From positions 10,009,710 through 10,073,709 of the forward strand of contig CP136062.1 in the NCBI GenBank assembly GCA_032622095.1: DNA of 64,000 nucleotides, given 5' to 3'. Shown piece by piece: positions 5,832 through 55,520 of this stretch. The DNA comes from Siphonodentalium dalli (lineage: Eukaryota; Mollusca; Scaphopoda; Gadilida; Siphonodentaliidae). Every line of letters begins with the position of its first letter. Position 1 is the first letter of the stretch. The position numbers and the translations under genes were made by a program. The notes beneath the pieces were generated by a model. The model had not been told where the DNA came from. It worked only from the letters and a program-made list of their open reading frames with translations, and did not search any database.

Positions 5832-6012
5832 TTGTTTCAGCTGAAATTGATAATAAGATGGACGAGTTGTTTGTTAAGTGTGGGTTAAACATCTATCGAT
5901 CGTTATTGGCCTCTCGTTTTTGTTTTAGCTGAGAATTATAATAATATGGATGAGCTGTAAAGTGTGGGTTAAACATCTGCCGATCGTGATTGGCCTCTCG
6001 TTTTATTTTCAG
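5832..6012 (+). repeat. Two degenerate copies of the exon 1 acceptor, about 86-bp period
   Basis: The acceptor and start of the 6013 exon ('ttcag' then CTGAAATTGATAATAAGATG) occur first at 5836-5860 and again, more mutated, at 5924-5955 (TTTTAG then CTGAGAATTATAATAATATG). Copies are 88 and 84 bp apart. Each keeps a pyrimidine tract and AG, so they are decoy acceptors. In the second copy an in-frame TAA follows GAGCTG, so it cannot replace the real exon. Confidence 0.8.
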
Positions 6013-6108
6013 CTGAAATTGATAATAAGATGGACGAGCTGTTAGGTGTGTTGAGTGTGGAGCTCGATGGAAGATTCTCAACAATTAGAACACAAGAAAC
6101 CAATCTAG
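6013..6108 (+). CDS. 5'-nucleotidase gene, exon 1 of those visible (start of C-terminal domain)
   Basis: The exon follows 'ttttattttcag' and ends at the donor TCTAG|GTGAGA. It starts with two bases completing a codon from an unseen upstream exon and ends with one base (phase 1). It encodes EIDNKMDELLGVLSVELDG then RFSTIRTQETNL, with the last G of NLG shared with the next exon. In UshA-family enzymes a segment of this kind (R..E..LGN..AD) links the metallophosphatase domain to the nucleotide-binding domain, and the join to NFITDIM in the next exon reproduces that motif. The length of 96 bp fits a normal internal exon. Both borders have been copied into the neighbouring introns: two acceptor copies upstream, and about 30 donor-region copies downstream. 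The identification rests on motif recognition, not on a search. Confidence 0.87.
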
Positions 6109-9100
6109 GTGAGAAGGAAATAATAAAACACACGGTGTACCTCACAGAGATAGAAACTTGCAATACCGAGTGGCATCCACTTGGGTCTGTTTGGGGCTCC
6201 CTATAGGAACCAATCTAACTGAGAAGGGATTAGTTTAACCCACAGGGTGCCTCACAGATCATATAGAGGTAGAGGGTTACAATACTTAGTGGTGTCTGTT
6301 TGGGGCTCCCTATAGGAACCAATCTAACTGAGAAGGGACTAGTTTAACCCACTTGGTGCCTCACAGATCATATAAAGATAGACACTTACAATACTTACAT
6401 GTAGTGGTGTCTGCTTGGGTCTGTTTGGGGCTCCCTATAGGAACCAATCTAGCTGAGAAGGGACTAGTTTAACCCACGGGGTGCCTCACAGATCATATAG
6501 AGAAAGAGGGTCACAATACTTAGTGGTGTCTGTTTGGGGCTCCCTATAGGAACCAATCTAGCTGAGAAGGGATTAGTTTAACCCACAGGGTGCCTCACAG
6601 ATCATATAGAGAAAGAGGGTCACACCATAGACTAAAAATAGGATAGACGTCGCACTCATGGTTATCAAACTGTAACGCTATTGGACGTCGCCATTGCGTT
6701 GGCCCTCAAGTGTTAAGGTAGTTCAGAAAAGTAGGGGGAGATAATTTTACGTTATATTTACATCGAGTTCGCGCAGGTTGTCGAGAGATATTCGTAATAA
6801 ATGTACTTTATACTAACTTTGTAACATTATGAATTTTAGGTAACATTAACTGAATGCCTAAGAATGCGATTTTGTTCAAGATAGGTTTTCCTGAAATAGA
6901 AAGTGCCCGCAATTCGATGTTGTTTACGCCGGCACATTGACAAGCTAACAAACTGTCTTGTTATTTCTTGTGGCAAGTTGTGAATTTTGCGTTGAGGTTT
7001 ATTTACTCAGATTTCTTACATGTAGTGTGGATTTAGTGCATTACCGATTGGCCGATCAAATGACGTCGAGTGACGTATCTATCCTTCCTTCATCTATGGT
7101 TACACCACTGAGTGGTGTCTGCTTGGGTCTGTTTGGGGCTCCCTATAGGAACCAATCTAACTGAGAAGGGATTAGTTTAACCCACGGGGTGCCTCACATA
7201 TCATATAGAGATAGAAGCTTACAATACTTAGTGGTGTCTGTTTGGGGCTCCCTATAGGAACCAATCTAACTGAGAAGGGATTAGTTTAACCCACAGGGTG
7301 CCTCACAGATCATATAGAGATAGAGGGTTACAATACTAAGTGGTGTCTGTTTGGGGCTCCCTATAGGAACCAATCTAGCTGAGAAGGGATTAGTTTAACC
7401 CACAGGGTGCCTCACATATCATATAGAGATAGAAGCTTACAATACTTAGTGGTGTCTGTTTGGGGCTCCCTATAGGAACCAATCTAGCTGAGAAGGGATT
7501 AGTTTAACCCACAGGGTGCCTCACAGATCATATAGAGATAGAAGCTTACAATACTAAGTGGTGGCTGTTTGGGGCTCCCTATAGGAACCAATCTAACTGA
7601 GAAGGGATTAGTTTAACCCACGGGGTGCCTCACAGATCATATAGAGATAGAGGGTTACAATACTTAGTGGTGTCTGTTTGGGGCTCCCAATAGGAACCAA
7701 TCTAGCTGAGAAGGGATTAGTTTAACCCACGGGGTGCCTCACAGATCATATAGAGATAGAAGCTTACAATACTTAGTGGTGGCTGTTTGAGGCTCCCTAT
7801 AGGAACCAATCTAGCTGAGAAGGGATTAGTTTAACCCACAGGGTGCCTCACAGCTCATATAGAGATAGAATACTTACATGTAGTGGTGTCTGCTTGGGTC
7901 TGTTTGGGGCTCCCTATAGGAACCAATCTAGCTGAGAATGGATTAGTTTAACCCACTGGGTGCCTCACAGATCATATAGAGATAGAAGCTTACAATACTT
8001 AGTGGTGTCTGTTTGGGGCTCCCTATAGGAACCAATCTAGCTGAGAAGGGATTAGTTTAACCCACAGGGTGCCTCACAAATCATATAGAGGTAGAAGCTT
8101 ACAATACTTAGTGGTGTCTGTTTGGGGCTCCCTATAGGAACCAATCTAGCTGAGAAGGGATTAGTTTAACCCACAGGGTGCCTCACAAACCATATAGAGG
8201 TAGAGGGTTACAATACTTTGTTGTGTCTGTTTGGGGCTCCCTATAGGAACCAATCTAGCTGAGAAGGGATTAGTTTAACCCACAGGGTGCCTCACAAATC
8301 ATATAGAGGTAGAGGGTTACAATACTAAGTGGTGTCTGCTTGGGTCTGTTTGGGGCTCCCTATAGGAACCAATCTAACTGAGAAGGGATTAGTTTAACCC
8401 ACAGGGTGCCTCACAGATCATATAGAGGTAGAAGCTTACAATACTAAGTGGTGTCTGTTTGAGGCTCCCTATAGGAACCAATCTAGCTGAGAAGGGATTA
8501 GTTTAACCCACAGGGTGCCTCACAAATCATATAAAGATAGAGGGTTACAATACTTAGTGGTGTCTGTTTGGGGCTCCCTATAGGAACCAATCTAGCTGAG
8601 AAGGGATTAGTTTAACCCACAGGGTGCCTCACAGATCATATAGAGGTAGAAGCTTACAATACTAAGTGGTGTCTGTTTGGGGCTCCCTATAGGAACCAAT
8701 CTAGCTGAGAAAGGATTAGTTTAACCCACGGGGTGCCTCACAAATCATATAGAGGTAGAAGCTTACAATACTTAGTGGTGTCTGTTTGGGGCTCCCTATA
8801 GGAACCAATCTAGCTGAGAAGGGATTAGTTCAACCCACAGGGTGCCTCACAGATCATATAGAGATAGAGGGTTACAATACTTAGTGGTGTCTGTTTGGGG
8901 CTCCCTATAGGAACCAATCTAGCTGAGAAGGGATTAGTTTAACCCACAGGGTGCCTCACAAATCATATAGAGGTAGAGGGTTACAATACTAAGTGGTGTC
9001 TGCTTGGGTCTGTTTGGGGCTCCCTATAGGAACCAATCTAACTGAGAAGGGATTAGTTTAACCCACAGGGTGCCTCACAGATCATATAGAGGTAGAAGCT

Positions 9101-9870
9101 TACAATACTAAGTGGTGTCTGTTTGAGGCTCCCTATAGGAACCAATCTAGCTGAGAAGGGATTAGTTTAACCCACAGGGTGCCTCACAAATCATATAAAG
9201 ATAGAGGGTTACAATACTAAGTGATGTCTGTTTGAGGCTCCCTATAGGAACCAATCTAACTGAGAAGGGATTAGTTTAACCCACAGGGTGCCTCACAAAT
9301 CATATAAAGATAGATGCTTACAATACTTAGTGGTGTCTGTTTGAGGCTCCCTATAGGAACCAATCTAGCTGAGAAGGGATTAGTTTAACCCACAGGGTGC
9401 CTCACAAATCATATAGAGGTAGAGGGTTACAATACTAAGTGGTGGCTGTTTGAGGCTCCCTATAGGAACCAATCTAACTGAGAAGGGATTAGTTTAACCC
9501 ACAGGGTGCCTCACAGATCATATAGAGGTAGAGGGTTACAATACTTAGTGGTGTCTGTTTGAGGCTCCCTATAGGAACCAATCTACTGAGAAGGGATTAG
9601 TTTAACCCACAGGGTGCCTCACAGATCATATAGAGATAGAGGGTTACAATACTTAGTGGTGTCTGTTTGGGGCTCCATATAGGAACCAATCTAACTGAGA
9701 AGGGATTAGTTTAACCCACAGGGTGCCTCACAGATCATATAGAGATAGAAGCTTTCAATACTAAGTGGTGTCTGTTTGGGGCTCCCTATAAGAACCAATC
9801 TAACTGAGAAGGGACTAGTTTAACCCACGGGGTGCCTCACAGATCATATAGAGATAGAGGGTTACACCAC
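6109..9870 (+). repeat. 109-bp minisatellite derived from the exon 1 donor junction, about 30 copies
   Basis: The first 110 bp of the intron plus the exon end (AACCAATCTAG|GTGAGAAGG, then 'cggtgtacctcacaga', 'gatagaaacttgcaatac') align with the repeat unit (AACCAATCTAGCTGAGAAGG, 'gggtgcctcacagatc', 'gatagaagcttacaatac'). The array therefore starts at the exon border itself. In the copies the donor GT has become CT (ctagctgag) or the site reads ctaactgag, so the copies are not usable as donors. Some units carry a longer 'ctgcttgggtctgtttgggg' variant. The last units (9845-10040) are strongly diverged. An unrelated element interrupts the array at about 6624-7100. Confidence 0.88.
6624..7100. 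mobile_element. MITE inserted in the 109-bp array
   Basis: The array stops inside 'agagggtcacac' and resumes at 'ggttacaccactgagtgg'. The intervening 475 bp have inverted ends: 'ccatagactaaaaatagg' on the left, and 'ccatagatgaaggaagg' when the right end is read on the other strand. No coding capacity. It must be younger than the array it splits. Confidence 0.65.
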
Positions 9871-10109
9871 TGAGTGGTGTCTGAATGGGTCTGTATGGAG
9901 TTCCCGATAGAACCAATCTAAGTAAAGAGGGATTAATTCTACCCACATGGTACCTCAGAGATACATGCCTTTCACTACTGTGTGGTATCTGTTTCTCCCT
10001 GTTTGGGGCTCCATATGGGTTCTTAGGATACTTTGGTCCAACAGTCATAAGATATATGTCAGAGGAGCATGTTTTCCTTTTGAGGTATGAAATATTTTTT
10101 TACACTTTT

Positions 10110-10739: not shown

Positions 10740-12792
10740 GTAAGTTCCATATCCTTGCATTCCCAAACCATCTCTGCTCTGTACCACCAAGCATGATAGA
10801 CACATGTTGTTTATAAAACAGTGCCAGATTTATAGATAACAGAACTTCTGTGGCTATAGGCAGAGTCCCCTGGGAGTGTATTCATGTCATTCATAATTTA
10901 AATGAGATTAATAGTGTTGAGCATTTGTTTTCTAAAGCTGTCAATCAAGCACCATGATTGTTTACAATACCCTGGTCATTAATATCAATTTAAATTCCTT
11001 TTCTCAAAGCTGTAATGAAGTGTGTCTGGCATTTGTAGAATGAGGTTCCCGGAGGGTGAATTTAATTATGCTACCCTGCATAGCATGCTAGCATTGCTAA
11101 ATACACCATTTGAGGGCCTCATTCTGCTTAGGCCTCATCTTCTGGGAAGTATCTAGAGTCTCAAATTAACATTTTTAGCACCTTTTTTTCCTTCTGTTGA
11201 GATTCTAAAATGCATAATTGAGGTGTGAAATGGGTGTGCATACTGTCATACGCCACCAACTTCAGCTGGAGAACTTCTGTCTGTCCCCAGGTCTCCCATA
11301 GCAGTTGATGACTAAGTAAGATTGGGTTCCCAGATGGTGAATTTGGTGATGCTAGCCCACCTTACAGAATAGCATCACTACATTCACCCTTTTGGGACCT
11401 CAAACACACTAAATTCACGCTTGGCTGTTCCAATATTATTTTCCTTGGTGGCATGTTTTGATCTGTTCCAATTGGGTCCTTTTTGGAAAATCAATTAACT
11501 TCAACTCTTAAAAGTGAATGTTTAAATTATTAGATGAATAGATATCAGAGATGGGGATTCATGTTTGTTCAAATAGGGGCAGAGGTATAAGAAAATTAGC
11601 TCTGCCCCACCCACATAACCTGTATCTATGATGTACGCTACTGGTATAATAAGATAATGTCATATTCTTGCAGGGATGTCCCCACAGTGTTGGGGGGGGG
11701 GGGGGGGGTTTACAGATTTGTTCAATGAAATGTAATTTTTAAGCTCGCCTGAGACAAAGCTATAGTCATCACTTCTCATCTGTCTCCTGTTCATCTGTCT
11801 GTCCATCCATCCATCTGTCAACAATTCTTTGAACATCTTCTCTAGATCATAAGACTGAATGGGTTCATATTTGGTGTGGATGTTCCCTTGGTGACTCACA
11901 TTCATATTTGTTCAAATGAGGTCACTCTGTCAAATGGTTGTGAAGCCAGTGCCATAACTCTTGCCCTCCATAGTAATTCTTAAAAACGACTTCTTCTCAT
12001 GTACCATCAGGTTGAATGGGTTCATATTTGGTATGAAGGGTCATTGGGTGACTGGAGTTCAGATTTGTTCAAATGGGTCACTTGTTTTAAATGGGGTTTC
12101 AAATTTATTCAGATGGGGTCACCAGATTAAATAGGGTGGGACCAGGGACATAACTGTATGTCTCTATGGTAATACTTAAAATGTCTTCTCAAGAGAGGTT
12201 GGACTATTTAGCTTACATATAGTATGGAGGATCCTTAATGACTGAGATTCAGATTTGTTAACATGATTCAAACTGTTAAGAAATTACGGGGCTATGGGGA
12301 CTTAACACTTTTGTGTCTAATAAAATCATTAAAATACAAAATGCTTTAAAACATCTACCTTGGAACTACCTGACTGATTAATCTGACATACCTATATGGT
12401 GTTTTTGGGTCCATGGATAATTGTGCTTCAAACATGTCTAAATAGTTTTATAAAAAGGTGCTTGTGAGATTGGAAATTTCCAACAATTGAGAAAGTTTGT
12501 GAGATGTCGGTTGTGAAATTCCAACCTAAGACTTGAGAGTCTGGAGCCCGGTCAGGAAGGGACATGAGCTGGAGGAGGGAGGGGGTGATCAGTAGTGTAC
12601 AGTTGGTAATTTAAAAGTAGGTATTCACCGATCTACATACATGAAGCCTCTCTATCCACATATCCTGTTTAGATCTACTTCTTTTAAGGTGATTATGAAA
12701 AGTTCTGACTGTTATGGTCTCCTGAGTCCCAGTCTTATCAGTCTTTGCAGTCTGGTGAGCGACCCCAGTCTTTGACTGTCTTGTTCATTGTT
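10740..12792 (+). repeat. Dispersed ~2-kb repeat, copy 1 (partner at 50600-52520)
   Basis: This stretch and 50600-52520 share a long series of segments in the same order and orientation: a foldback 'gaggtgaattt' hairpin, 'gcttaggcctcatcttc', 'cagagatggggattca', 'gggtgggaccagggacata', 'caagagaggttggactattt', 'gagattggaaatttcca' and 'agtctttgcagtctggtgag'. Local differences include different MITE-like hairpins and a long G run (about 11692-11708). No protein-coding capacity is evident, so it is either a degenerate transposon or a segmental duplication. Confidence 0.75.
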
Positions 12793-12845
12793 ATAACAGA
12801 TATTATTATAGGATACAGCAAATGTACTGATGTCAGAGGCCATAA
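12793..12845 (+). pseudogene. Degenerate fragment of exon 2 upstream of the real exon
   Basis: 'ttataacagatattat' followed by 'ggatacagcaaatgtactga' resembles the beginning of the 13477 exon ('ttataacagatattatgctg', 'aatacaacgaatgcagac'). It lacks a clean acceptor and has several substitutions and a small insertion, so it is a non-functional exon copy. It lies immediately outside the boundary of the dispersed 2-kb repeat. Confidence 0.6.
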
Positions 12846-12879
12846 ATACTGAGAGTTAACATTCACATTATCGTTTACA

Positions 12880-13476
12880 CTATCAGGTAATTTTATACCT
12901 ATAAAACGTTATTGTTTAAACTTACAGATAATTTTATACCCATAAAATGTTATTGTTTAAACTTACAGGTAATTTTATACCTATAGAACATTATTGATTA
13001 AACTTTAACATACAGGTAATCATATACCTATAAAACATAATGGTTTTCACTTTATACCTATAAAACATAATGGTTTACACTTTATACCTATAAAACATAA
13101 TAGTTTACACTTTATACCTATAAAACATAATAGTTTACACTTTATACCTATAAAACATAATAGTTTACACTTTATACCTATAAAACATAATGGTTTACAC
13201 ATTATACCTATAAAACATAATGGTTTTCACTTTATACCTATAAAACATTATGGTTTTCACTTTATACCTATAAAACATAATGGTTTTCACTTTATACCTA
13301 TAAAACATAATGGTTTTCACATTATACCTATAAAACATTATGGTTTACACTTTATACCTATAAAACATTATGGTTTACACTTTATACCTATAAAACATTA
13401 TAGTTGTCACTTTATACCTATAAATCTTTCTGGTTTTCACTTTATACCTATAAAACATTATGGTTTTCACTTTCAG
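12880..13476 (+). repeat. Acceptor-derived array before exon 2 (41-bp then 30-bp units)
   Basis: The upstream units (12880-13020) carry a 'cag' plus GTAATTTTATA, which is the exact start of the 13477 exon with its acceptor, followed by 'cctataaaacgttattg'. From about 13020 the array settles into a 30-bp unit, 'tttatacctataaaacataa' plus 'tggtttacac', in about 15 copies that have lost the AG. The final unit ends 'ggttttcactttcag', which is the functional acceptor. Part of this array supplies the pyrimidine tract of the real exon. Confidence 0.82.
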
Positions 13477-13644
13477 GTAATTTTATAACAGATATTATGC
13501 TGAATACAACGAATGCAGACGTCGCTCTACTCAACTCCGGGACGATGAGGTCCAACAAACAACATTCCAGGGGGAATTTCCACCTCCGCGACCTACTTAC
13601 GATTCTACCTCTAATAGATCCACTAGTAGTCATCAAAGTTAGCG
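13477..13644 (+). CDS. 5'-nucleotidase gene, exon 2 (NSG..R nucleotide-binding motif)
   Basis: The exon follows 'cactttcag' and ends at TTAGCG|GTGAGT; phase 1 at both borders. It encodes NFITDIMLNTTNADVALLNS, then GTMRSNKQHSRGNFHLRDLL, then TILPLIDPLVVIKVS. The sequence NSGTMR corresponds to the conserved N-G-G-x-R-type loop that binds the nucleotide in UshA and CD73, and the RDLLTILP segment matches the family's (Y/R)(D/E)LL..LP motif. Asn, Gly and Arg of the loop are present, which argues for an intact enzyme domain. The exon sits between an acceptor-derived array and two tandem copies of its own 3' end. Reading through the donor gives GEYHVKWGGVYHHLP and a stop at about 13689-13691. Confidence 0.9.
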
Positions 13645-13915
13645 GTGAGTATCATGTTAAATGGGGAGGGGTGTATCATCACCTTCCGTGACCTACTTAC
13701 GATACTACCTCTAATAGATCCGCTGGTGGTCATCAAAGTTAGCGGTGAGTATCATGTTAAATGGGCGGGGTGTATTGTCGCCTTAACTCCCGAACGATGA
13801 GATCCAATAAACAACATTCCAGGGGGAATTTCCACCTCCGCGACCTACTTACATCAAAGTTAGTGGTGAGTATCATGTTAAATGGGGAGGGGTGTATCGT
13901 CCAAGGCTCAAAATA
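13645..13915 (+). repeat. Two tandem copies of the exon 2 3' end with donor
   Basis: Copy one (13685-13784) repeats CGTGACCTACTTACGATACT to GTTAGCG|GTGAGTATCATG, with donor GT at 13745. Copy two (13785-13915) begins further inside the exon (AACTCCCGAACGATGAG), has lost about 31 bp in the middle, and ends GTTAGTG|GTGAG with donor GT at 13866. Both keep intact donors but have no acceptor of their own. Confidence 0.88.
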
Positions 13916-14458: not shown

Positions 14459-14478
14459 AAGCCTAATTCTCTTTTAAG

Positions 14479-14651
14479 GTCGCCAGCTTATGGAAGCACT
14501 GGAGAATGGTGTGTCTCAGTATCCAAAACTGGAGGGCCGATTTCCACAGATATCAGGAATCACCTTTGGTTTTAATCCTGATAAGCCGGCAAATGAACGA
14601 ATAGATACTAGTCATGTTTCAGTACAAGGAAAACAAGTCGATCTGGATAAT
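14479..14651 (+). CDS. 5'-nucleotidase gene, exon 3 (GRFPQISG base-stacking segment)
   Basis: The exon follows 'ctcttttaag', starts with two bases completing Gly, and ends at GATAAT|GTGAGT in phase 0. It encodes RQLMEALENGVSQYPKLEG, RFPQISGITFGFNPDKPAN and ERIDTSHVSVQGKQVDLDN. The (A)LE.GVS....GRFPQ(V/I)SG block is a signature of the C-terminal domain; its Phe is the position that stacks on the nucleobase in characterised relatives. DLDN joins directly to HYRLCTKEY of the next exon, giving the family's 'd..Y.v.t..y' pattern. The last 93 bp of the exon with its donor are duplicated immediately downstream, offering a second in-frame donor at 14745. A third strong donor-like site (ATAG|GTAAGT) lies at 14785 but is out of phase. 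Confidence 0.9.
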
Positions 14652-14744
14652 GTGAGTTTTGGTTTTAATCCGAATAAGTCGGCAAATGAACGAATAGATA
14701 CTAGTCATGTTTCAGTACAAGGAAAACAAGTCGATCTGGATAAT
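14652..14744 (+). repeat. In-frame 93-bp duplication of the exon 3 end and donor
   Basis: Starting in the GTGAG of the first donor, the sequence repeats GGTTTTAATCCGAATAAGTC through GATCTGGATAAT and a second GTGAGT. Only two coding changes separate the copies (DKP versus NKS). 93 bp is 31 codons with no stop, so use of the second donor would insert 31 residues, VSFGFNPNKSANERIDTSH and the rest, without shifting frame. Which donor is used cannot be told from sequence. Confidence 0.85.
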
Positions 14745-17370
14745 GTGAGTTTTCCTTTTGAAATGACATGGAATTCACCCATAGGTAAGTAATAGTTGAA
14801 ACGTAACATGACACGAGCTTAGTGTAGCACATAGTCAGCAATCTGTAACGAGCCGAAACGTGATGAGACATACGCATAGTATGACACAGAGTCAGCAATC
14901 TGTAACGAGCCGAAACGTGATGAGACATAAGCATAGTATGACACAGAGTCAGCAATCTGTAACGAGCCGAAACGTGATGAGACATACGCATAGTATGACA
15001 CAGAGTCAGCAATCTGTAACGAGCCGAAACGTGATAAGACATACGCATAGTATGACACAGAGTCGGCAATCTGTAACGAGCCGAAACGTGATGAGACATA
15101 CGCATAGTATGACACAGAGTCAGCAATCTGTAACGAGCCGAAACGTGATGAGACATAAGCATAGTATGACACAGAGTCAGCAATCTGTAACGAGACGAAA
15201 CGTGATGAGACATAAGCATAGTATGACACAGAGTCAGCAATCTGTAACGAGCCGAAACGTGATAAGACATACGCATAGTGTGACACAGAGTCAGCAATCT
15301 GTAACGAGCCGAAACGTGATAAGACATACGCATAGTGTGACACAGAGTCAGCAATCTGTAACGAGCCGAAACGTGATAAGACATACGCATAGTATGACAC
15401 AGAGTCAGCAATCTGTAACGAGCCGAAACGTGATGAGACATACGCATAGTATGACACAGAGTCGGCAATCTGTAACGACCCGAAACGTGATGAGACATAC
15501 GCATAGTGTGACACAGAGTCAGCAATCTGTAATGAGCCGAAACGTGATAAGACATATGCATAGTGTGACACAGAGTCGGCAATCTGTAACGAGCCGAAAC
15601 GTGATGAGACATACGCATAGTATGACACAGAGTCGGCAATCTGTAACGAGCCGAAACGTGATGAGACATACGCATAGTATGACACAGAGTCAGCAATCTG
15701 TAATGAGCCGAAACGTGATAAGACATACGCATAGTGTGACACAGAGTCAGCAATCTGTAACGAGCCGAAACGTGATAAGACATACGCATAGTATGACACA
15801 GAGTCAGCAATCTGTAACGAGCCGAAACGTGATAAGACATACGCATAGTATGACACAGAGTCAGCAATCTGTAACGAGCCGAAACGTGATGAGACATACG
15901 CATAGTGTGACACAGAGTCAGCAATCTGTAACGAGCCGAAACGTGATGAGACATACGCATAGTATGACACAGAGTCAGCAATCTGTAACGAGCCGAAACG
16001 TGATGAGACATACGCATAGTGTGACACAGAGTCAGCAATCTGTAACGAGCCGAAACGTGATGAGACATACACATAGTATGACACAGAGTCGGCAATCTGT
16101 AACGAGCCGAAACGTGATGAGACATACGCATAGTATGACACAGTGTCAGCAATCTGTAACGAGCCGAAACGTGATGAGACATACGCATAGTATGACACAG
16201 AGTCAGCAATCTGTAACGAGCCGAAACGTGATAAGACATACGCATAGTGTGACACAGAGTCAGCAATCTGTAACGAGCCGAAACGTGATGAGACATACGC
16301 ATAGTGTGACACAGAGTCAGCAATCTGTAACGAGCCGAAACGTGATGAGACATACGCATAGTATGACACAGAGTCAGCAATCTGTAACGAGCCGAAACGT
16401 GATGAGACATACACATATTGTGACACAGAGTCAGCAATCTGTAACGAGCCGAAACGTGATGAGACATACGCATAGTATGACACAGAGTCAGCAATCTGTA
16501 ACGAGCCGAAACGTGATAAGACATACACATAGTATGACACAGAGTCAGCAATCTGTAACGACCCGAAACGTGATAAGACATACGCATAGTATGACACAGA
16601 GTCGGCAATCTGTAACGAGCCGAAACGTGATGAGACATACGCATAGTGTGACACAGAGTCAGCAATCTGTAACGAGCCGAAACGTGATGAGACATACACA
16701 TAGTGTGACACAGAGTCAGCAATCTGTAACGACCCGAAACGTGATAAGACATACGCATAGTGTGACACAGAGTCAGCAATCTGTAACGAGCCGAAACGTG
16801 ATAAGACATACGCATAGTATGACACAGAGTCAGCAATCTGTAACGAGCCGAAACGTGATAAGACATACGCATAGTATGACACAGAGTCAGCAATCTGTAA
16901 CGAGCCGAAACGTGATGAGACATACACATAGTGTGACACAGAGTCGGCAATCTGTAACGAGCCGAAACGTGATGAGACATACGCATAGTATGACACAGAG
17001 TCAGCAATCTGTAACGAGCCGAAACGTGATAAGACATACGCATAGTGTGACACAGAGTCAGCAATCTGTAACGAGCCGAAACGTGATGAGACATACGCAT
17101 AGTATGACACAGAGTCGGCAATCTGTAACGAGCCGAAACGTGATAAGACATACGCATAGTATGACACAGAGTCAGCAATCTGTAACGAGCCGAAACGTGA
17201 TAAGACATACGCATAGTGTGACACAGAGTCAGCAATCTGTAACGAGCCGAAACGTGATGAGACATACACATAGTATGACACAGAGTCGGCAATCTGTAAC
17301 GACCCGAAACGTGATAAGACATACGCATAGTATGACACAGAGTCAGCAATCTCTAACGAGCCGAAACGTG

Positions 17371-25788: not shown

Positions 25789-26434
25789 AGTTGACATTGT
25801 TACTACATTTCTGTGTCGAGTTTAATCAAATATTGCGTCAACTGAGGTACGAATTTGACAAATCCTACATTTATGCTTATCAAATAAAAGCTTCGTTGAA
25901 TGTTAATTTTCGCACTGTTAATGTCCCTGTGTAGCCCAAGAAATGACTTTTTGCGATTGGTTCGTGGTTTGATCTGATGGTCCCAATTTGACCAAGCCTA
26001 TTGTGACTCATTTTATGTATTGATCTCATCCCCGTATTTTTTCCGTGAGTCAACCTGGTGGATCTGCAAAGTCTACTCTATACAATGAAAACAAGAAGAA
26101 GCCCACTTTTGTCGTGCCAATTCAGCAAAAAGCTCCTTTATCTAAGTTTGTCATAAAATATCACGTATGATACGGTCGCAGAATCGTTAAACTGCCGTAG
26201 CACCGTGGTTGTCAAGTCGCAGAATCGTGAAATTGGTCGCAGAATCTTCAAAACGATTGTGCCGTGTGAATATGCATGCATTGTTGTTTATCAAAGGTCA
26301 ATAATAAGTATGAGAGATTTTTTAATTGAAATATGGGGGTATTATATTCAAAAAGACTGTAACACAACATTACCAATTATTGGAGGTCAGGGTATAAATT
26401 CGCTCACGAGTTGCTTCATTTCTCAGTGACATTT
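25789..26434. other. Unique intronic sequence
   Basis: No exon-like segment, tandem repeat or inverted terminus recognised, apart from a short 'gtcgcagaatcgt' motif repeated about three times around 26175-26245. Confidence 0.5.
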
Positions 26435-26437
26435 ATT

Positions 26438-26476
26438 GTTTTGTTTATATCAGCGTTACCATCTATATTATTAGAG
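26438..26476 (+). repeat. Degenerate copy of the exon 4 acceptor and exon start
   Basis: 'ttttgtttatatcag' followed by GCGTTACCATCTATATTA parallels the real junction 'ttttgtttatttcag' plus CATTACCGTCTATGCACC some 60 bp downstream. It is a single acceptor copy and quickly loses the reading frame. Confidence 0.65.
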
Positions 26477-26511
26477 TTATTCATCTTTGTTTATTTTTTT
26501 GTTTATTTCAG

Positions 26512-27290: not shown

Positions 27291-27295
27291 AATGA

Positions 27296-39981: not shown

Positions 39982-40106
39982 GTATCAGATGAACAGTGTC
40001 CTACGCTCAGCACCGCTGTGAGGAATCATTTTGAGTCCATTCAGATGTGTGCCGGAATAAAGCCATGTAAATCAGGTCACCGACAGAGCCTCATCAGTCT
40101 TATCAA
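39982..40106 (+). CDS. 5'-nucleotidase gene, exon 5 (C-terminal helix and extension)
   Basis: The exon follows 'ttttaccttatag' and encodes VSDEQCPTLSTAVRNHFES, IQMCAGIKPCKSGHRQSLIS and LI, ending AA|GTAAGA in phase 2. DE...P.LST.VRNHF.S matches the segment that follows GKDGYDVF in animal 5'-nucleotidases of this type. The start at 39982 keeps frame with exon 4; the AG six bases further in would introduce a stop after ten codons. The exon is enclosed on both sides by tandem copies of itself: its 5' half upstream, and its last 24 bases plus donor downstream. Continuing past the donor reads AAG TAA, an immediate stop, so every failure to splice here or use of a downstream donor ends the protein at ...SLISLIK. 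Confidence 0.88.
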
Positions 40107-43100
40107 GTAAGATTCCCCCATACAGAGCCTCATCAGTCTTATCAAGTAAGATTCCCCCCATACAGAGCCTCATCAGCCTCATCAAGTAAGATTCCCCCCA
40201 TACAGAGCCTCATCAAATACGATTCCCCCATACAGAGCCTCATCAAGTAAGATTCCCCCCATACAGAGCCGCATCAGCCTTATCAAGTAAGATTCCCCCA
40301 TACAGAGCCTCATCAGCCTCATCAAGTAAGATTCCCCCCATACAGAGCCTCATCAGCCTCATCAAGTAAGATTCCCCCATACAGAGCCTCATCAAGTAAG
40401 ATTCCCCCCATACAGAGCCTCATCAGCCTCATCAAGTAAGATTCCCCCATACAGAGCCTCATCAAGTAAGATTCCCCCCATACAGAGCCTCATCAGCCTC
40501 ATCAAGTAAGATTCCCCCATACAGAGCCTCATCAAGTAAGATTCCCCCATACAGAGCCTCACCAGCCTCATCAAGTAAGATTCCCCCATACAGAGCCTCA
40601 TCAAGTAAGATTCCCCCATACAGAGCCTCATCAAGTAAGATTCCCCCCATACAGAGCCTCATCAGCCTTATCAAGTAAGATTCCCCCATACAGAGCCTCA
40701 TCAGCCTCATCAAGTAAGATTCCCCCCATACAGAGCCTCATCAGCCTCATCAAGTAAGATTCCCCCATACAGAGCCTCATCAAGTAAGATTCCCCCCATA
40801 CAGAGCCTCATCAGCCTTATCAAGTAAGATTCCCCCATACAGAGCCTCATCAGCCTCATCAAGTAAGATTCCCCCCATACAGAGCCTCATCAGCCTTATC
40901 AAGTAAGATTCCCCCCCCCCATACAGAGCCTCATCAGCCTCATCAAGTAAGATTCCCCCCATACAGAGCCTCATCAGCCTTATCAAGTAAGATCCCCCCA
41001 TACAGAGCCTCATCAAGTAAGATCCCTCCCCCATACAGAGCCTCATCAGCCTCATCAAGTAAGATTCCCCCATACAGAGCCTCATCAAGTAAGATCCCCC
41101 CCATACAGAGCCTCATCAGCCTCATCAAGTAAGATTCCCCCATACAGAGCCTCATCAGCCTCATCAAGTAAGATTCCCCCATACAGAGCCTCATCAGCCT
41201 CATCAAGTAAGATCCCCCCCATACAGAGCCTCATCAAGTAAGATCCCCCCATACAGAGCCTCATCAAGTAAGATTCCCCCATACAGAGCCTCATCAGCCT
41301 CATCAAGTAAGATTCCCCCATACAGAGCCTCATCAGTCTCATCAAGTAAGATTCCCCCATACAGAGCCTCATCAGCCTCATCAAGTAAGATTCCCCCATA
41401 CATAGCCTCATCAGCCTCATCAAGTAAGATTCCCCCATACAGAGCCTCATCAGCATCATCAAGTAAGATCCCCCCCCCCCCATACAGAGCCTCATCAGTC
41501 TTATCAAGTAAGATCCCCCCATACAGAGCCTCATCAGCCTTATCAAGTGAGATCCCCCCATACAGAGCCTCATCAGTCTTATCAAGTAAGATCCCCCCCA
41601 TACAGAGCCTCATCAGTCTTATCAAGTAAGATCCCCCCATACAGAGCCTCATCAGCCTTATCAAGTAAGATCCCCCCCCCCCATACAGAGCCTCATCAGC
41701 CTCATCAAGTAAGATCCCCCCATACAGAGCCTCATCAGCCTCACCAAGTAAGATCCCCCCCATACAGAGCCTCATCAGTCTTATCAAGTAAGATTCCCCC
41801 ATACAGAGCCTCATCAGCCTCATCAAGTAAGATTCCCCCATACAGAGCCTCATCAGCCTCATCAAGTAAGATCCCCCCCCCCATACAGAGCCTCATCAAG
41901 TAAGATTCCCCCCATACAGAGCCTCATCAGCCTTATCAAGTAAGATTCCCCCATACAGAGCCTCATCAGCCTCATCAAGTAAGATCCCCCCCATACAGAG
42001 CCTCATCAGCCTCATCAAGTAAGATTCCCACATACAGAGCCTCATCAGCGTTATCAAGTAAGATTCCCCCATACAGAGCCTCATCAGCCTCACCAAGTAA
42101 GATTCCCCCCATACAGAGCCTCATCAGCCTCACCAAGTAAGATTCCCCCATACAGAGCCTCATCAGCCTTATCAAGTAAGATTCCCCCATACAGAGCCTC
42201 ATCAGCCTCACCAAGTAAGATTCCCCCCATACAGATCCTCATCAGCCTCACCAAGTAAGATTCCCCCATACAGAGCCTCATCAGCCTCACCAAGTAAGAT
42301 TCCCCCCATACAGAGCCTCATCAAATAAGATCCCCCCATACAGAGCCTCATCAAATAAGATTCCCCCCATACAGAGCCTCATCAAGTAAGATCCCCCCCA
42401 TACAGAGCCTCATCAGTCTTATCAAGTAAGATCCCCCCCCCCCCATACAGAGCCTCATCAGTCTTATCAAGTAAGATCCCCCCCATACAGAGCCTCATCA
42501 GCCTTATCAAGTAAGATCCCCCCCATACAGAGCCTCATCAGCCTCATCAAGTAAGATCCCCCCCATACAGAGCCTCATCAGCCTCACCAAGTAAGATCCC
42601 CCCCCCCATACAGAGCCTCATCAGTCTTATCAAGTAAGATTCCCCCCATACAGAGCCTCATCAGCCTCATCAAGTAAGATTCCCCCATACAGAGCCTCAT
42701 CAGCCTCATCAAGTAAGATTCCCCCATACAGAGCCTCATCAAGTAAGATTCCCCCCATACAGAGCCTCATCAGCCTCATCAAGTAAGATTCCCCCATACA
42801 GAGCCTCATCAGCCTCATCAAGTAAGATTCCCCCATAGAGAGCCTCATCAGCCTCATCAAGTAAGATCCCCCCATACAGAGCCTCATCAGCCTTATCAAG
42901 TAAGATTCCCCCATACAGAGCCTCATCAAGTAAGATTCCCCCATACAGATCCTCACCAGCCTCATCAAGTAAGATCCCACCATACAGAGCCTCATCAGCC
43001 TCATCAAGTAAGATTCCCCCATACAGAGCCTCATCAAGTAAGATTCCCCCCATACAGAGCCTCATCAGTCTTATCAAGTAAGATTCCCCCCATACAGAGC

Positions 43101-43905
43101 CTCATCAGCCTCATCAAATAAGATCCCCCCATACAGAGCCTCATCAAATAAGATTCCCCCCATACAGAGCCTCATCAAATAAGATTCCCCCCCCCATACA
43201 GAGCCTCATCAAGTAAGATTCCCCCATACAGAGCCTCATCAGTCTTATCAAGTAAGATTCCCCCATACAGAGCCTCATCAGTCTTATCAAGTAAGATTCC
43301 CCCCATACAGAGCCTCATCAGCCTTATCAAGTAAGATCCCCCCCCCCATACAGAGCCTCATCAGCCTTATCAAGTAAGATTCCCCCATACAGAGCCTCAT
43401 CAGCCTCATCAAGTAAGATTCCCCCATACAGAGCCTCATCAGCCTCATCAAGTAAGACCCCCCCCCATACAGAGCCTTATCAAGTAAGATTCCCCCATAC
43501 AGAGCCTCATCAGCCTCATCAAGTAAGATTCCCCCATACAGAGCCTCATCAGCCTCATCAAGTAAGATCCCCCCATACAGAGCCTCATCAGTCTTATCAA
43601 GTAAGATCCCCCCCCCCATACAGAGCCTCATCAGCCTCATCAAGTAAGATCCCCCCCATACAGAGCCTCATCAGTCTTATCAAGTAAGATCCCCCCCATA
43701 CAGAGCCTCATCAGTCTTATCAAGTAAGATTCCCCCATAGAGAGCCTCATCAGTCTTATCAAGTAAGATTCCCCCATACAGAGCCTCACCAAGTAAGATC
43801 CCCCCCATACAGAGCCTCATCAGTCTTATCAAGTAAGATTCCCCCATACAGAGCCTCATCAAGTAAGATTTCCCCCATACAGAGCCTCATCAAGTAAGAT
43901 TCCCC
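40107..43905 (+). repeat. Array of about 100 copies of the exon 5 donor junction
   Basis: The exon end ACAGAGCCTCATCAGTCTTA then TCAA|GTAAGATTCCCCC is repeated head to tail as 'cagagcctcatcagcctcat', 'caagtaagattccccccat'. Units are about 40 bp, or about 30 bp where the 'cagcctcat' segment is missing, with the C run varying from 5 to 12 bases. Almost every unit keeps CAAGTAAGA, a good match to a 5' splice site. Small frames such as those reading MRLCMGESYL on the minus strand are by-products of the repeat. Confidence 0.93.
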
Positions 43906-43914
43906 CCCCCCCCC

Positions 43915-44500: not shown

Positions 44501-44506
44501 TCAACT

Positions 44507-47500
44507 TACTTTTGTAAGTTTGAGCTATTGCCATGGTTTGGCGTCCGTCGTCTGTGTGTCCGTGTGTCCGTCAACAATTTCCTTTGGCGCGGGCTACAGG
44601 TCGTACCTTTGGTCTGATCTTTATGAAATTTGTCATGAATGTTGACATTGACATGTAGATGGGAAACGAGTCATTTTGGGGTCATACGGCCAAAAAACAT
44701 GGCTGCTGGCAGCCATCTTGGATTTCAAGATTCAATCCATTGGCGCGGGCTACAGGTCGTACTGTTCGTCTGATCATCATGAAATTTGTCATGGATGTTA
44801 ATAATGACATATAGATGGGAATGAGTGATTTTGGGGTCGTTCGGCCAAAAAACATGGCTGCCAGCAGCCATCTTGGATTTTACTCTTTGCATGACTAAAT
44901 CCTTTTGCGCGGGCTACAGGTCGTTGCGTTTGTCGGAAGTTTATGAAATTTGTCATGGATGTTAACATTGACATGTAGATGGGAAACGAGTGATTTTGGA
45001 GTCGTTCGGCCAAAAAACATGACCGCCAGCAGCCATCTTGGATTTTACTCTTTGCATGACTAAATCCTTTGGCGCGGGCTGCAGGTTGTACCTTTGGTCT
45101 AATCTTTATGAAATTTGTCATGAATGTTGACATTGACATGTAGATGGGAACGAATCATTGTGGGGTCGTTCGGCCGAAAAACATGGCTGCCAGCAGCCAT
45201 CTTGGATTTTACTCTTTGCATGACTAAATCTTTTGGCGCTGGCTACAGGTCGTAGCTTTTATCGGAAGATCATGAAATTTGTCATGGATGTTAATATTGA
45301 CATGTAGATGGGAATGAGTCATTTTGGGGTCATTCAGCCAAAAAACATGGCCGCTGGCAGCCATCTTGGATTTCAAGATTCAATCCATTGGCACGGGCTA
45401 CAGGTCGTACTGTTCGTCTGATCATCATGAAATTTGTCATGGATGTTAATATTGACATGTAGATGGGAACGAGTCATTTTTTGGGGTCGTTCGGCCAAAA
45501 AACATGGCCGCCAGCAGCCATCTTCGATTTTACTCTTTGCATGACTAAATCCTTTGCCGCGGGCTACAGGTCGTAGATTTTATCTGAAGATCATGAAATT
45601 TGTCATGGATGATAACAATGACATGTAGATGGGAACGAGTCATTTTGGGGTCGTTCGGCCGAAAAACATGGCTGCCAGCAGCCATCTTGGATTTTACTCT
45701 TTGCATGACTAAATCCTTTGGCGCGGGCTACAGGTCGTACCTTGGTCTAATCTTTATGAAATTTGTCATCAATGTTAATATTGACATGTAGATGGGAACG
45801 AGTCATTTTTTGGGGTCGTTCGGCCAAAAAACATGGCCGCCAGCAGCCATCTTCGATTTTACTCTTTGCATGACTAAATCCTTTGGCGTGGGCTACAGGT
45901 CGTAGCTTTTATCGGAAGATCATGAAATTTGTCATGGATGTTAACAATGACATGTAGATGGGAACGAGTCATTTTGGGGTCGTTCGGCCGAAAAACATGG
46001 CAGCCATCTTGGATTTTACTCTTTGCATGACTAAATCTTTTGGCGCTGGCTACAGGTTGTAGCTTTTATCGGAAGATCATGAAATTTGTCATGGATGTTA
46101 ATATTGACATGTAGATGGGAACGAGTCATTTTGGGGTCATTCGGCCAAAAAACATGGCCGCTGGCAGCCATCTTGGATTTCAAGATTCAATCCATTGGCG
46201 CGGGCTACAGGTCGTACTGTTCGTCTGATCATCATGAAATTTGTCATGGATGTTAATAATGACATATAGATGGGAATGAGTGATTTTGGGGTCGTTCGGC
46301 CAAAAAACATGGCTGCCAGCAGCCATCTTGGATTTTACTCTTTGCATGACTAAATCCTTTGGCGCGGGCTGCAGGTTGTACCTTTGGTCTAATCTTTATG
46401 AAATTTGTCATGAATGTTGACATTGACATGTAGATGGGAACGAATCATTGTGGGGTCATTCGGCCAAAAAACATGGCTGCTGGCGGCCATATTAGATTTC
46501 AAAATTCAATCCATTGGCGCGGGCTACAGGTCGTACTGTTCGTCTGATCATCATGAAATTTGTCATGGATGTTAATATTGACATGTCGATTGGAACGAGT
46601 CATTTTGGGGTCGTTCGGCCAAAAAAACATGGCGCCATCAGCCATCTTGGATTTTACTCTTTGCATGACTAAATCCTTTGGCGTGGGCTACAGGTCGTAG
46701 CTTTGATCGGAAGATCATGAAATTTGTCATGGATGTTAACAATGACATGTAGATGGGAACGAGTGATTTTGGGGTCGTTCGGCCAAAAAACATGGCTGCC
46801 AGCAGCCATCTTGGATTTTACTCTTTGCATGACTAAATCCTTTGGCGCGGGCTACAGGTCGTTGCGTTGGTCGGAAGTTTATGAAATCTGTCATGGATGT
46901 TAACACTGACATGTAGATGGGAACGAGTGATTTTGGAGTCGTTCGGCCAAAAAACATGGCCGCCAGCAGCCATCTTGGATTTTACTCTTTGCATGACTAA
47001 ATCCTTTGGCGCGGGCTACAGGTTGTACCTTTGGTCTAATCTTTATGAAATTTGTCATGAATGTTGACATTGACATGTAGATGGGAACGAATCATTGTGG
47101 GGTCATTCGGCCAAAATAACATGGCTGCTGGCGGCCATCTTAGATTTCAAAATTAAATCCATTGGCGCGGGCTACAGGTCGTACTGTTCGTCTGATCATC
47201 ATGAAATTTGTCATGGATGTTAATATTGACATGTAGATGGGAACGAGTCATTTTTTGGGGTCGTTCGGCCAAAAAACATGGCCGCCAGCAGCCATCTTCG
47301 ATTTTACTCTTTGCATGACTAAATCCTTTGGCGCGGGCTACAGGTCGTAGATTTTATCTGAAGATCATGAAATTTGTCATGGATGTTAACAATGACATGT
47401 AGATGGGAACGAGTCATTTTGGGGTCGTTCGGCCGAAAAACATGGCTGCCAGCAGCCATCTTGGATTTTACTCTTTGCATGACTAAATCCTTTGGCGCGG

Positions 47501-50010
47501 GCTACAGGTCGTACCTTGGTCTAATCTTTATGAAATTTGTCATCAATGTTAATATTGACATGTAGATGGGAACGAGTCATTTTTTGGGGTCGTTCGGCCA
47601 AAAAACATGGCCGCCAGCAGCCATCTTCGATTTTACTCTTTGCATGACTAAATCCTTTGGCGTGGGCTACAGGTCGTAGCTTTTATCGGAAGATCATGAA
47701 ATTTGTCATGGATGTTAACAATGACATGTAGATGGGAACAAGTCATTTTGGGGTCGTTCGGCCGAAAAACATGGCAGCCATCTTGGATTTTACTCTTTGC
47801 ATTACTAAATCTTTTGGCGCTGGCTACAGGTCGTAGCTTTTATCGGAAGATCATGAAATTTGTCATGGATGTTAATATTGACATGTAGATGGGAACGAGT
47901 CATTTTGGGGTCATTCGGCCAAAAAACATGGCCGCTGGCAGCCATCTTGGATTTCAAGATTCAATCCATTGGCGCGGGCTACAGGTCGTACTGTTCGTCT
48001 GATCATCATGAAATTTGTCATGGATGTTAATAATGACATATAGATGGGAATGAGTGATTTTGGGGTCGTTCGGCCAAAAAACATGGCTGCCAGCAGCCAT
48101 CTTGGATTTTACTCTTTGCATGACTAAATCCTTTGGCGCGGGCTGCAGGTTGTACCTTTGGTCTAATCTTTATGAAATTTGTCATGAATGTTGACATTGA
48201 CATGTAGATGGGAACGAATCATTGTGGGGTCATTCGGCCAAAAAACATGGCTGCTGGCGGCCATATTAGATTTCAAAATTCAATCCATTGGCGCGGGCTA
48301 CAGGTCGTACTGTTCGTCTGATCATCATGAAATTTGTCATGGATGTTAATATTGACATGTAGATTGGAACGAGTCATTTTGGGGTCGTTCGGCCAAAAAA
48401 ACATGGCGCCATCAGCCATCTTGGATTTTACTCTTTGCATGACTAAATCCTTTGGCGCGGGCTACAGGTCGTAGCTTTGATCGGAAGATCATGAAATTTG
48501 TCATGGATGTTAACAATGACATGTAGATGGGAACGAGTGATTTTGGGGTCGTTCGGCCAAAAAACATGGCTGCCAGCAGCCATCTTGGATTTTACTCTTT
48601 GCATGACTAAATCCTTTGGCGCGGGCTACAGGTCGTTGCGTTGGTCGGAAGTTTATGAAATCTGTCATGGATGTTAACACTGACATGTAGATGGGAACGA
48701 GTGATTTTGGAGTCGTTCGGCCAAAAAACATGGCCGCCAGCAGCCATCTTGGATTTTACTCTTTGCATGACTAAATCCTTTGGCGCGGGCTACAGGTTGT
48801 ACCTTTGGTCTAATCTTTATGAAATTTGTCATGAATGTTGACATTGACATGTAGATGGGAACGAATCATTGTGGGGTCATTCGGCCAAAATAACATGGCT
48901 GCTGGCGGCCATCTTAGATTTCAAAATTAAATCCATTGGCGCGGGCTACAGGTCGTACTGTTCGTCTGATCATCATGAAATTTGTCATGGATGTTAATAT
49001 TGACATGTAGATGGGAACGAGTCATTTTTTGGGGTCGTTCGGCCAAAAAACATGGCCGCCAGCAGCCATCTTCGATTTTACTCTTTGCATGACTAAATCC
49101 TTTGGCGCGGGCTACAGGTCGTAGATTTTATCTGAAGATCATGAAATTTGTCATGGATGTTAACAATGACATGTAGATGGGAACGAGTCATTTTGGGGTC
49201 GTTCGGCCGAAAAACATGGCTGCCAGCAGCCATCTTGGATTTTACTCTTTGCATGACTAAATCCTTTGGCGCGGGCTACAGGTCGTACCTTGGTCTAATC
49301 TTTATGAAATTTGTCATCAATGTTAATATTGACATGTAGATGGGAACGAGTCATTTTTTGGGGTCGTTCAGCCAAAAAACATGGCCGCCAGCAGCCATCT
49401 TCGATTTTACTCTTTGCATGACTAAATCCTTTGGCGTGGGCTACAGGTCGTAGCTTTTATCGGAAGATCATGAAATTTGTCATGGATGTTAACAATGACA
49501 TGTAGATGGGAACGAGTCATTTTGGGGTCGTTCGGCCAAAAAACATGGCCGCCAGTAGCTATCTTGGATTTTACTCTTTGCATGACTAAATCCTTTGGTG
49601 CGGGCTACAGGTCGTAGCTTTGGTCAGATGGTCATGAAATTTGTCATGGATGATAACAATGACATGTAGATGGGAACGAGTCGTTTTGGGGTCATTCTGT
49701 CCAAACACATGGCCACCAGCAGCCATCTTGGATTTTACTCTTTGCATGACTAAATCCTTTCGCGCGGGCCATTTTGGATTTTCAAAATTCAATCCATTGG
49801 CGCGGTCTACAGGTCGTACTGTTCGTCTGATCATCATGAAGTTTGTAGGTCGTAGCTTTGGTCAGATCTTCATAAAATGTGTCATGGATGTTAACAATGA
49901 CAAGTAGATGGGGAACGAGTCCTTTTGGGGTCAATTGGCCAAAAAACATGGCCGCCAGCAGCCATCTTGTATTTTACTCTTTGCGTCACTAAATCCTTGG
50001 GCGCAGGTTA
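44507..50010 (+). repeat. ~165-bp satellite array, about 33 units
   Basis: Units of 156-165 bp carry 'catggccgccagcagccatc', 'ttggattttactctttgcat', 'ggcgcgggctacaggtcgta', 'catgaaatttgtcatggatg' and 'gacatgtagatgggaacgag'. It begins with 'tagctcaacttacttttgta', a mirror-like 'ttgtaagtttgagctatt' and a gtccgtcg tract. Copies differ by substitutions and small indels, so open frames are short. From about 45400 the unit order repeats with a 1774-bp period. Confidence 0.9.
45600..49550 (+). repeat. 1774-bp higher-order repeat within the 165-bp array
   Basis: Diagnostic units recur at this spacing: the shortened unit 'aaaaacatggcagccatctt' at about 45990 and 47764; 'gaagtttatgaaatctgtca' at about 46877 and 48651; and a three-copy marker, 'accttggtctaatctttatg' with 'catcaatgttaat', at about 45740, 47514 and 49288. 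The period corresponds to eleven basic units. Confidence 0.8.
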
Positions 50011-50049
50011 GACATTTCAATTAGCACCTTTCCTATTCCTCCATTTACT

Positions 50050-54065: not shown

Positions 54066-54195
54066 TTTCATTATGTTTGTTTTCTGCTGTCCTTGTCATG
54101 TTCTATTCTTTATTTGCCGAGTTATGTGTGTTTTCTGATGTCCCTATATGTTATATTCCCTGTATGCCTAGTTATGTTTGTTTTGTATTTTTCAG
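54066..54195 (+). repeat. Tandem copies of the exon 6 pyrimidine tract
   Basis: 'gttatgtgtgttttctgatg' with 'tccctatatgttatattccc' and 'tgtatgcctag' is repeated about 2.5 times at roughly 53-bp spacing up to the acceptor 'ttttgtatttttcag'. The intermediate copies end in gccgag or gcctag, so they may act as weak acceptors. Confidence 0.65.
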
Positions 54196-54343
54196 GAAAG
54201 AGAGCATGATTTTACATGAAGTACATTCCAACCATTCTATCACCAGATCGTTGGTTCGACAGCAGAGTGTTCACGATGCTGAGTGCGAAAAATGTCAGAT
54301 CGCTCCGTCCAAAGAAGGAAGGATTTATATGATTGACACCGAG
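54196..54343 (+). CDS. 5'-nucleotidase gene, exon 6 (C-terminal extension)
   Basis: The exon starts with one base completing the Lys codon split at the exon 5 donor (AA plus G) and ends ACCGAG|GTAAAC in phase 0. It encodes KESMILHEVHSNHSITRSLV, RQQSVHDAECEKCQIAPSKE and GRIYMIDTE. The tail is rich in His, Ser, Cys and charged residues and has no hydrophobic stretch. EGRI..ID resembles the final strand of related animal proteins, but I am less certain of homology here than for exons 2-4; its membership rests mainly on the exact phase fit on both sides and on the open frame with consensus borders. One Cys pair (C..C, ECEKC) could bind metal or form a disulfide, but nothing shows that. Confidence 0.78.
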
Positions 54344-54649: not shown

Positions 54650-54905
54650 CATTAAGCTAACCAATAAAATTTGTCAGAGTATTTACCTTATTAATCATTA
54701 TATGAGATTCTAATGGGCATCCTTCACCGTCGGCCTTCACCAATCTTCCGAGTATTTACCTTATTAATCATTATATGAGATTCTAATTGGCATCCTTCGC
54801 CGTCGGCGACACCAATCTTCAGAGTATTTACCTTATTAATCATTATATGAGATTCTAATCGGCATCCTTCGCCGTCGGCCTTCACCAATCTTCAGAGTAT
54901 TATCT
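54650..54905 (+). repeat. 73-bp tandem repeat, three copies
   Basis: 'cagagtatttaccttattaa', 'tcattatatgagattctaat' and 'ggcatccttcgccgtcggc' repeated three times with very few differences. It lies in the intron between exons 6 and 7 and is not visibly derived from either exon. Confidence 0.85.
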
Positions 54906-55457
54906 TTAAAGCCAACCTCGTGCCTCCCTAAATGAGGTCCCCAGAGGGTGAATTTAGTGATGCTAGCCCACCAAGCTAACCCTAAAGTAGTCCAACGATT
55001 ACAAAATTAATGTATAGCTCGCTGAACGTAAAATATTACACCTGTAACACATAGAACCGTGTATACCGTAGACTGTAACACATGAAATTATTCCCCCTCC
55101 AAGTTGACACTTTCATTCTACATTCTTCTTGGCAGGGAGCAAATTAACTGGTATCGCATCGCAATTTGCTACCCAAATTTGGATAAAAACTACGCAATTT
55201 GGTATGAATTATATATGATTTTAGAACAATGCTATGTAATCATGTCATTGTGAGGTTATTTGGTAATCAAAATTTCAAAAGTAATTAGCTTCCTGCTTCT
55301 TGGCTTTGTGATTATTTTTAAGAAATTAAAGCATAATCATTTGGAAAATTAGATTAGATCTCCATATAGAAGTTATAGTTTTGTATCTTTATAATTTTTT
55401 CCTCTGTCTGTCTGTCCTTCGTCACCTTGATATATCTTTATTATATTTTCCTCACAG

Positions 55458-55520
55458 AACTTCAAGTTTATGCCAGCATTACAAGAACAGGTGTCCACTT
55501 CTACAGAAAGTAGTAACTGA
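55458..55520 (+). CDS. 5'-nucleotidase gene, terminal exon and stop codon
   Basis: After 'ttatattttcctcacag' the frame continues NFKFMPALQEQVSTSTESSN and stops at TGA 55518-55520. The phase (0) matches the exon 6 donor. The end is Ser/Thr-rich and polar. With no hydrophobic tail it does not look like a GPI-anchor signal, so the protein is probably soluble, either intracellular or secreted; the N-terminus that would decide this is outside the window. Confidence 0.78.
   Translation, partial: NFKFMPALQEQVSTSTESSN

Follow-up and report, generated by a model that had tools for sequence, protein, structure and literature searches.

The window analysed here is a 64,000-nucleotide stretch of contig C2 of the Siphonodentalium dalli genome (G000:C2:10009710-10073709; 2.23 Gb in 9 contigs), and it carries seven plus-strand exons of a 5′-nucleotidase-family gene that are in phase with one another, as judged by their splice signals and an uninterrupted frame. 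Our subject is the splice junctions of this gene: at 8 of 13, the exon end recurs together with its flanking intron, in tandem copies that lie inside the intron. The exons are as follows (positions are those of the window; a slash marks the splice site):

E1, 6013-6108, plus strand: phase-1 acceptor, donor AATCTAG/GTGAG; supported by splice signals, frame, PF02872 and solved 5′-nucleotidases
E2, 13477-13644, plus strand: PF02872 match, frame
E3, 14479-14651, plus strand: PF02872 match, frame
E4, 26512-26589, plus strand: frame; lies within the PDB alignment
E5 (putative), 39982-40106, plus strand: acceptor TTATAG/GTATCAG, donor ATCAA/GTAAGA; motif scan, phase continuity
E6 (putative), 54196-54343, plus strand: frame; no exon-derived copies found
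E7 (putative), 55458-55520, plus strand: frame, ends in a stop codon; no exon-derived copies found

E1–E4 lie within the 282-residue protein encoded by the seven exons, which matches 5_nucleotid_C (PF02872) with an E-value of 1e-39, and they are further supported by solved 5′-nucleotidases (best 2z1a_A, E 1.5e-24). E5–E7 are predicted from phase-consistent splice sites and an open frame, E5 having been located by scanning for a motif that we take to belong to the tail of this protein. The reading frame is intact from E1 to E7 (for E5–E7, by phase and splice signals). A protein search of the own genome (E ≤ 0.01; 17 candidates scored) found no close paralogue, its 9 matches all falling inside the window; distant PF02872 genes lie on contigs C5 and C1.

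Copies of exon ends were found in the following arrays and duplications, with support from Tandem Repeats Finder (TRF), BLAST, a 32-base junction probe or pattern searches:

5832-6050, plus strand: E1 acceptor array, 84 bp x 2.6 (TRF, BLAST, probe sites 5824 and 5911)
6095-9883, plus strand: E1 donor array, 109-bp unit, 29 probe sites (TRF, 30 BLAST hits, probe)
12865-13473, plus strand: E2 acceptor arrays (TRF, BLAST)
13581-13901, plus strand: E2 donor copies (TRF, BLAST, probe)
14565-14759, plus strand: E3 donor duplication, 93 bp x 2 (TRF, open frame 14478-14792, BLAST 95%)
26432-26524, plus strand: E4 acceptor duplication, two copies (BLAST 89% over 35 bp, probe)
38714-40044, plus strand: E5 acceptor array, 106-bp unit (TRF, BLAST, pattern search)
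40083-43906, plus strand: E5 donor array, ~39-bp unit, ~100 copies (TRF, 96 BLAST hits, probe with 101 sites)

How far does the pattern extend along the gene? In a test applied uniformly to every junction, which required a copy spanning at least 10 exon and at least 5 intron bases, with a second copy on the intron side, at E ≤ 1e-3 within a 1.6-kb frame, 8/13 junctions were positive: the acceptors of E1, E2, E4, and E5 and the donors of E1, E2, E3, and E5. Antisense hits were absent across all 13. Seven of 13 junctions stayed positive with the low-complexity filter on; leaving out E5 turns the 8/13 into 6/11. The junction probe scored above all 60 shuffles at these eight junctions, with 2, 4, 1, and 2 sites for the acceptors of E1, E2, E4, and E5, and 29, 2, 1, and 101 for the donors of E1, E2, E3, and E5. 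The acceptor of E3, the donor of E4, both ends of E6, and the acceptor of E7 gave zero exon-edge copies by uniform test and probe alike. Finally, BLASTN searches of the window with each exon plus 60 bases on either side returned 141 non-self hits containing at least 10 exon bases (E1 32, E2 7, E3 1, E4 1, E5 100, E6 0, E7 0). Without exception they are plus-strand matches within the neighboring intron, on whichever side corresponds to the exon end copied. Their identity ranges from 70% to 100% and varies between junctions and between copies, which suggests events of different ages.

An earlier, sequence-only reading had placed repeats containing exon ends and intron beside exons 1, 2, 3, and 5, and the uniform test bears this out more strongly than it was put. 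Its further observations that the arrays grow into the intron and never replace the exon, and that they occur on acceptor and donor sides alike, also hold: all 141 hits are adjacent and on the correct side, the exons are intact, and four acceptors and four donors are positive. It had also described weaker copies 5′ of exon 1 and at exons 4 and 6. The E4 acceptor copy is there, but those 5′ of E1 are not weak (85–87%) and E6 has none; neither E6 nor E7 could be confirmed as a site of such copies.

The individual arrays differ in construction and fate. The E1 acceptor unit joins the intron end to the first ~38–48 bases of E1, the final copy being the real exon start, and BLAST recovers copies of 54 bp at 87% and 95 bp at 85%. 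On the donor side of E1, the unit includes the last ~14 bases of the exon; CT replaces the donor GT in 29 copies, and no copy matched the GTGAG form of the pattern. Before E2, 41-bp units (12868-13005) carry the acceptor plus the first 11 exon bases. They are followed by a 30-bp array (13023-13473) that lacks both AG and exon bases and probably derives from the E2 acceptor units; three units upstream of it retain AG, followed by GTAATTT or ATAATTT. An exon-only match farther upstream (12791-12824) is older. The two E2 donor copies hold 64 (13680-13784) and 115 (13782-13901) exon bases, each with GTGAGT, and, being of unequal extent, point to at least two events, so that duplication recurred with different end points. 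At the donor of E3, the duplication comprises 87 exon bases, is open in frame (31 residues) and retains GTGAGT in the second copy; its breakpoints, read by eye, share three bases, TTT. The E4 acceptor duplication is a single pair at an offset of 58 bases with 13 exon bases.

At E5, the acceptor unit holds up to 62 exon bases, and the four intron copies found by pattern all lack AGGTAT, the hexamer in which the frame-correct acceptor AG lies. The donor unit consists of 24 exon and 15 intron bases, and among its ~100 units are 86 exact ATCAAGTAAG and 95 GTAAG. In genome searches that skip very common words, the E5 donor unit was found at this locus only and the E1 donor unit at this locus and as one 206-bp piece on C4; apart from that piece the two are locus-restricted, and they therefore arose here. 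An unrelated insertion (~38907-39655) interrupts the E5 acceptor array; its ends are inverted in a by-eye reading (GGGCTTCATGGTAT ... ATACCATGAAGCCC), and it looks like a small DNA transposon.

By no means all arrays in the gene contain exon sequence. Among the 26 non-redundant TRF arrays of the gene span, 9 have exon-derived segments and 17 do not. The two largest (57 bp x 190 and 164 bp x 32) and a 24-bp x 146 array were considered as exon-derived and rejected, as none had an exon-bearing BLAST hit. The array upstream of E6 (54071-54184) stops just short of the acceptor, again with no exon hits. The 164-bp family (unit with GGCTACAGGTCGTA) occupies 44580-49769 of the window, in an intron of the gene, and recurs as long arrays in L155-L158, ~16–42 kb upstream of the window start.

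What could have produced the junction copies? We assign a probability of about 0.75 to the reading that this gene carries mirage minisatellites, the products of ordinary tandem duplication acting locally at a locus rich in repeats, with selection as the filter and array growth afterwards. Several times, independently, segments of ~40–150 bases straddling exon–intron borders would have undergone tandem duplication; whichever copy was attached to the rest of the exon would stay functional, and the remaining copies would turn into intron. Some of these may then have expanded into long arrays via slippage or unequal exchange, with decoy splice sites presumably spliced over and exon-damaging duplications removed by selection. 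The copies are adjacent and on the same strand, their units end within exon and intron, the frame is intact, and extents and divergences differ between events. As in mirages, the unit is an exon end plus adjoining intron (8/13 junctions), the intact exon sits at the array edge, and the tandem units are of minisatellite size. When a tandem duplication spans a junction and the exon must be kept, geometry dictates that the intact exon ends up at the array edge, as it does here in every case. This position fits the earlier suggestion that duplications arise anywhere and only those leaving an intact exon survive, of which the selective part is something we infer.

Are exon borders favored in general? 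We scored 229 internal junctions of 140 control exons, hand-picked from the match lists of five families (Cpn60 42/53, Aldedh 11/13, Ras 63/150, proteasome 15/20, AAA 9/20). We omitted loci that looked like duplicates, matches close to full length, the greater part of the Ras cluster on C5 and other, mostly weaker, rows. PF00069 and PF00149 matches were left out of control sampling, and AMP-binding, whose 14 matches are single exons of almost full length, was unsuitable as a control family. Apart from these controls, all 13 PF02872 matches outside the window were taken. Control junctions are domain-internal only and were placed by a simple home-made splice score, checked by viewing 25 of 153 loci; placement failed for one acceptor and one donor. 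The intron background was taken at 20 offsets, 60–440 bases into the same introns.

Copies spanning the junction were present at 7/229 control junctions (acceptors 3/118, donors 4/111), all seven confirmed as junction-spanning on alignment, with one junction showing an antisense hit. Intron positions were positive in 273/4,580 cases, that is, 6.0% against 3.1% for junctions (Fisher p 0.08, with positions non-independent). Under the low-complexity filter and stricter E-values, the junctions stayed at 7/229 while intron counts were 254, 240, and 228 of 4,580. Two of the positive controls are donors of one Cpn60-family gene (2/13 junctions), the sole multi-hit cluster among 93 gene clusters, nucleotidase clusters included. 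In general, then, exon borders show no preference for duplication and perhaps, it may be, a mild depletion. The proposal that duplication starts preferentially at borders consequently finds no support outside this gene in our sample, and the question whether the pattern recurs in other genes is answered in part: it does recur, but not above intron background.

Several results weigh against ordinary duplication as the whole account. The 8/13 junctions here compare with 7/229 in the controls (Fisher p 2.8e-8, a post hoc figure), so that a uniform rate is insufficient. Within the gene, hits peak at the border (8/13 at offset 0 versus 4/13 at 60–90 bases), and this peak exceeds the gene's own raised intron rate of 62/260 positions. 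Array number and length alone also predict fewer junction hits: TRF intervals overlap 5/13 junctions, and when the 26 arrays were placed at random with no exon swallowed, five junctions were reached in 6 of 20,000 trials, a statistic that is itself post hoc because the gene was picked for its pattern.

The outlier status of this gene is owed at least partly to introns unusually rich in tandem arrays. TRF arrays cover 60% of the gene span; across 140 control loci the mean is 5% and the median 0, with 4 loci reaching 30%. Upstream, coverage is 26–68% in L155-L158 and 9% in L001; with parts of this region array-rich too, the richness extends beyond the gene. Possible causes of the junction excess are relaxed constraint, locus-specific instability, and the choice of the most striking case.

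The other nucleotidase genes offer a closer comparison. Thirteen of their exons, on C5 and C1, gave 2/21 positive junctions. A C5 exon homologous to E2 was sampled at three loci:

L152, C5:73481471
L153, C5:73804239
L154, C5:73319276

Upstream acceptor copies, seven partial matches each, are present in L152 and L154; L153 has none in the sampled ~700 bases. Since the paralogs L153 and L154 share 93% identity along 677 bases, from ~55 bases before the exon, and only the latter has the copies, arrays turn over, and the three loci make a ready natural comparison for array gain or loss.

Relaxed constraint, in which a decaying gene would tolerate decoy splice sites, strikes us as a doubtful explanation. 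When the forward frames of 56 kb (window 1-5999, L001, and L155-L158) were scanned with Pfam, no exon for the catalytic domain (PF00149) was found upstream, and a genome search listed no PF00149 match on contig C2. The silence of the genome search means little, however, because it was empty beside the C5 and C1 nucleotidase genes too; the introns here are also long. In favor of relaxed constraint, ordinary genes have somewhat fewer junction than intron copies, yet the seven exons here are in frame and their splice sites usable. The upstream scans also gave short matches in L155-L158, some above cut-off (YgaP-like_TM, CysA_C_terminal), in a stretch that is repeat-rich.

Alternatively, the borders of this gene or family might be true duplication starts, for instance through an AGGT-like sequence or a break linked to transcription or splicing. 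The peak of hits at offset 0 and the acceptor copies in two of the three C5 loci speak for this. The C5 copies carry longer exon parts, and so are probably separate events. On the other hand, the 229 control junctions show no border excess, unit ends vary between events (even within the E2 donor), L152 and L154 are related and may share one event, and just 2/21 junctions were positive over the 13 sampled nucleotidase exons. We therefore regard border starts as unlikely, and slightly more so the wider form in which the borders of 5′-nucleotidase genes of this genome are real hot spots, via their AG/GT sequence, transcription or splicing, from which introns grow outward.

It is very improbable that the copies were retained as splicing regulators, for instance by acting as decoy donors or by providing alternative exon ends that stay in frame. 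The 86 exact donors kept beside E5 and the in-frame 31-residue duplication with intact donor at E3 would suit such a role, but there is no common preservation: the donor is lost in 29 E1 donor copies, the frame-correct acceptor in the four E5 acceptor copies, and AG in the 30-bp array before E2, and such differing fates argue against a common function. An origin of the exon ends from dispersed satellites abutting or entering exons deserves next to no credence. We rejected it on account of the units being confined to this locus—in searches that skip very common words, the E5 donor unit was found nowhere else and that of E1 elsewhere only as the C4 piece—and the exon parts of E1–E4 encode conserved nucleotidase residues, even if satellites are abundant and the 164-bp family also lies upstream.

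Mirage minisatellites thus remain our preferred reading, and the pattern is known in kind but striking in degree. Amphioxus genomes, for comparison, are far smaller than 2.2 Gb. In the available sections of the amphioxus reports, mirages are tandem repeats spanning exon–intron borders, found at 5′ and 3′ borders of the globin genes BflGb6 and BflGb9, where one gene has 6 units in one haplotype and 3 in another and reverse-transcription PCR suggests normal splicing (PMC3087553); they also occur in the Adh3, troponin C, and PGBD5 genes (PMC3902484). The sequence-only reading, to which a gene-wide, junction-centered pattern was unfamiliar, was thus mistaken in taking it for an unrecognized one. 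As here, the units span 5′ or 3′ borders, the exon is retained, and some copies keep AG/GT (PMC3087553, PMC3902484); unit sizes given there are ~10–160 bp, compared with 39–109 bp in the present gene. Unlike the amphioxus cases covered by those sections, ours comes from a 2.23-Gb genome, involves 8/13 junctions of one gene with arrays of ~100 copies, and is known from one haplotype sequence. In open-licence PMC literature, we recognized no other animal gene case outside amphioxus.

Related processes have been described elsewhere. Tandem duplication is, according to the sections available, an accepted route of intron gain, including the potato RdRp case, and there too the duplication includes splice signals; a new intron is made in those cases, whereas here the copies lie inside present introns and we identified no new one (PMC4974935, PMC3443670). 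In human duplicated genes, internal tandem repeats at exon–intron boundaries likewise affect exon ends, but, in the part of that report available, they are defined by variable repeat number between paralogs and backed by transcript evidence (PMC2812944). What is new here is the extent, at 8/13 junctions and with as many as ~100 copies, together with a rate derived from controls. Mirages, named in print only for amphioxus among the literature searched, are thereby extended to another, large genome, and the gene shows how far their growth can go within one locus. The 7/229, from a hand-picked sample, serves as an estimate of how often splice junctions are caught in tandem duplication, with no border preference. 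Some ~100 donor copies adjoining an intact exon moreover amount to a natural test of splice-site choice.

Two observations concern the genome at large. On contig C2, protein kinase matches with identical or nearly identical scores form a very large cluster (G000:C2:149.8-150.6 Mb), many of them being spaced by ~2.4–2.9 kb. Repeated exon matches with the same or near-same scores, 0.06–0.7 Mb apart, occur at C7:133.43/133.49, C1:54.10/54.27, C4:67.54/68.20, and C6:222.34/223.06 Mb, and are either recent segmental duplications or uncollapsed haplotypes.

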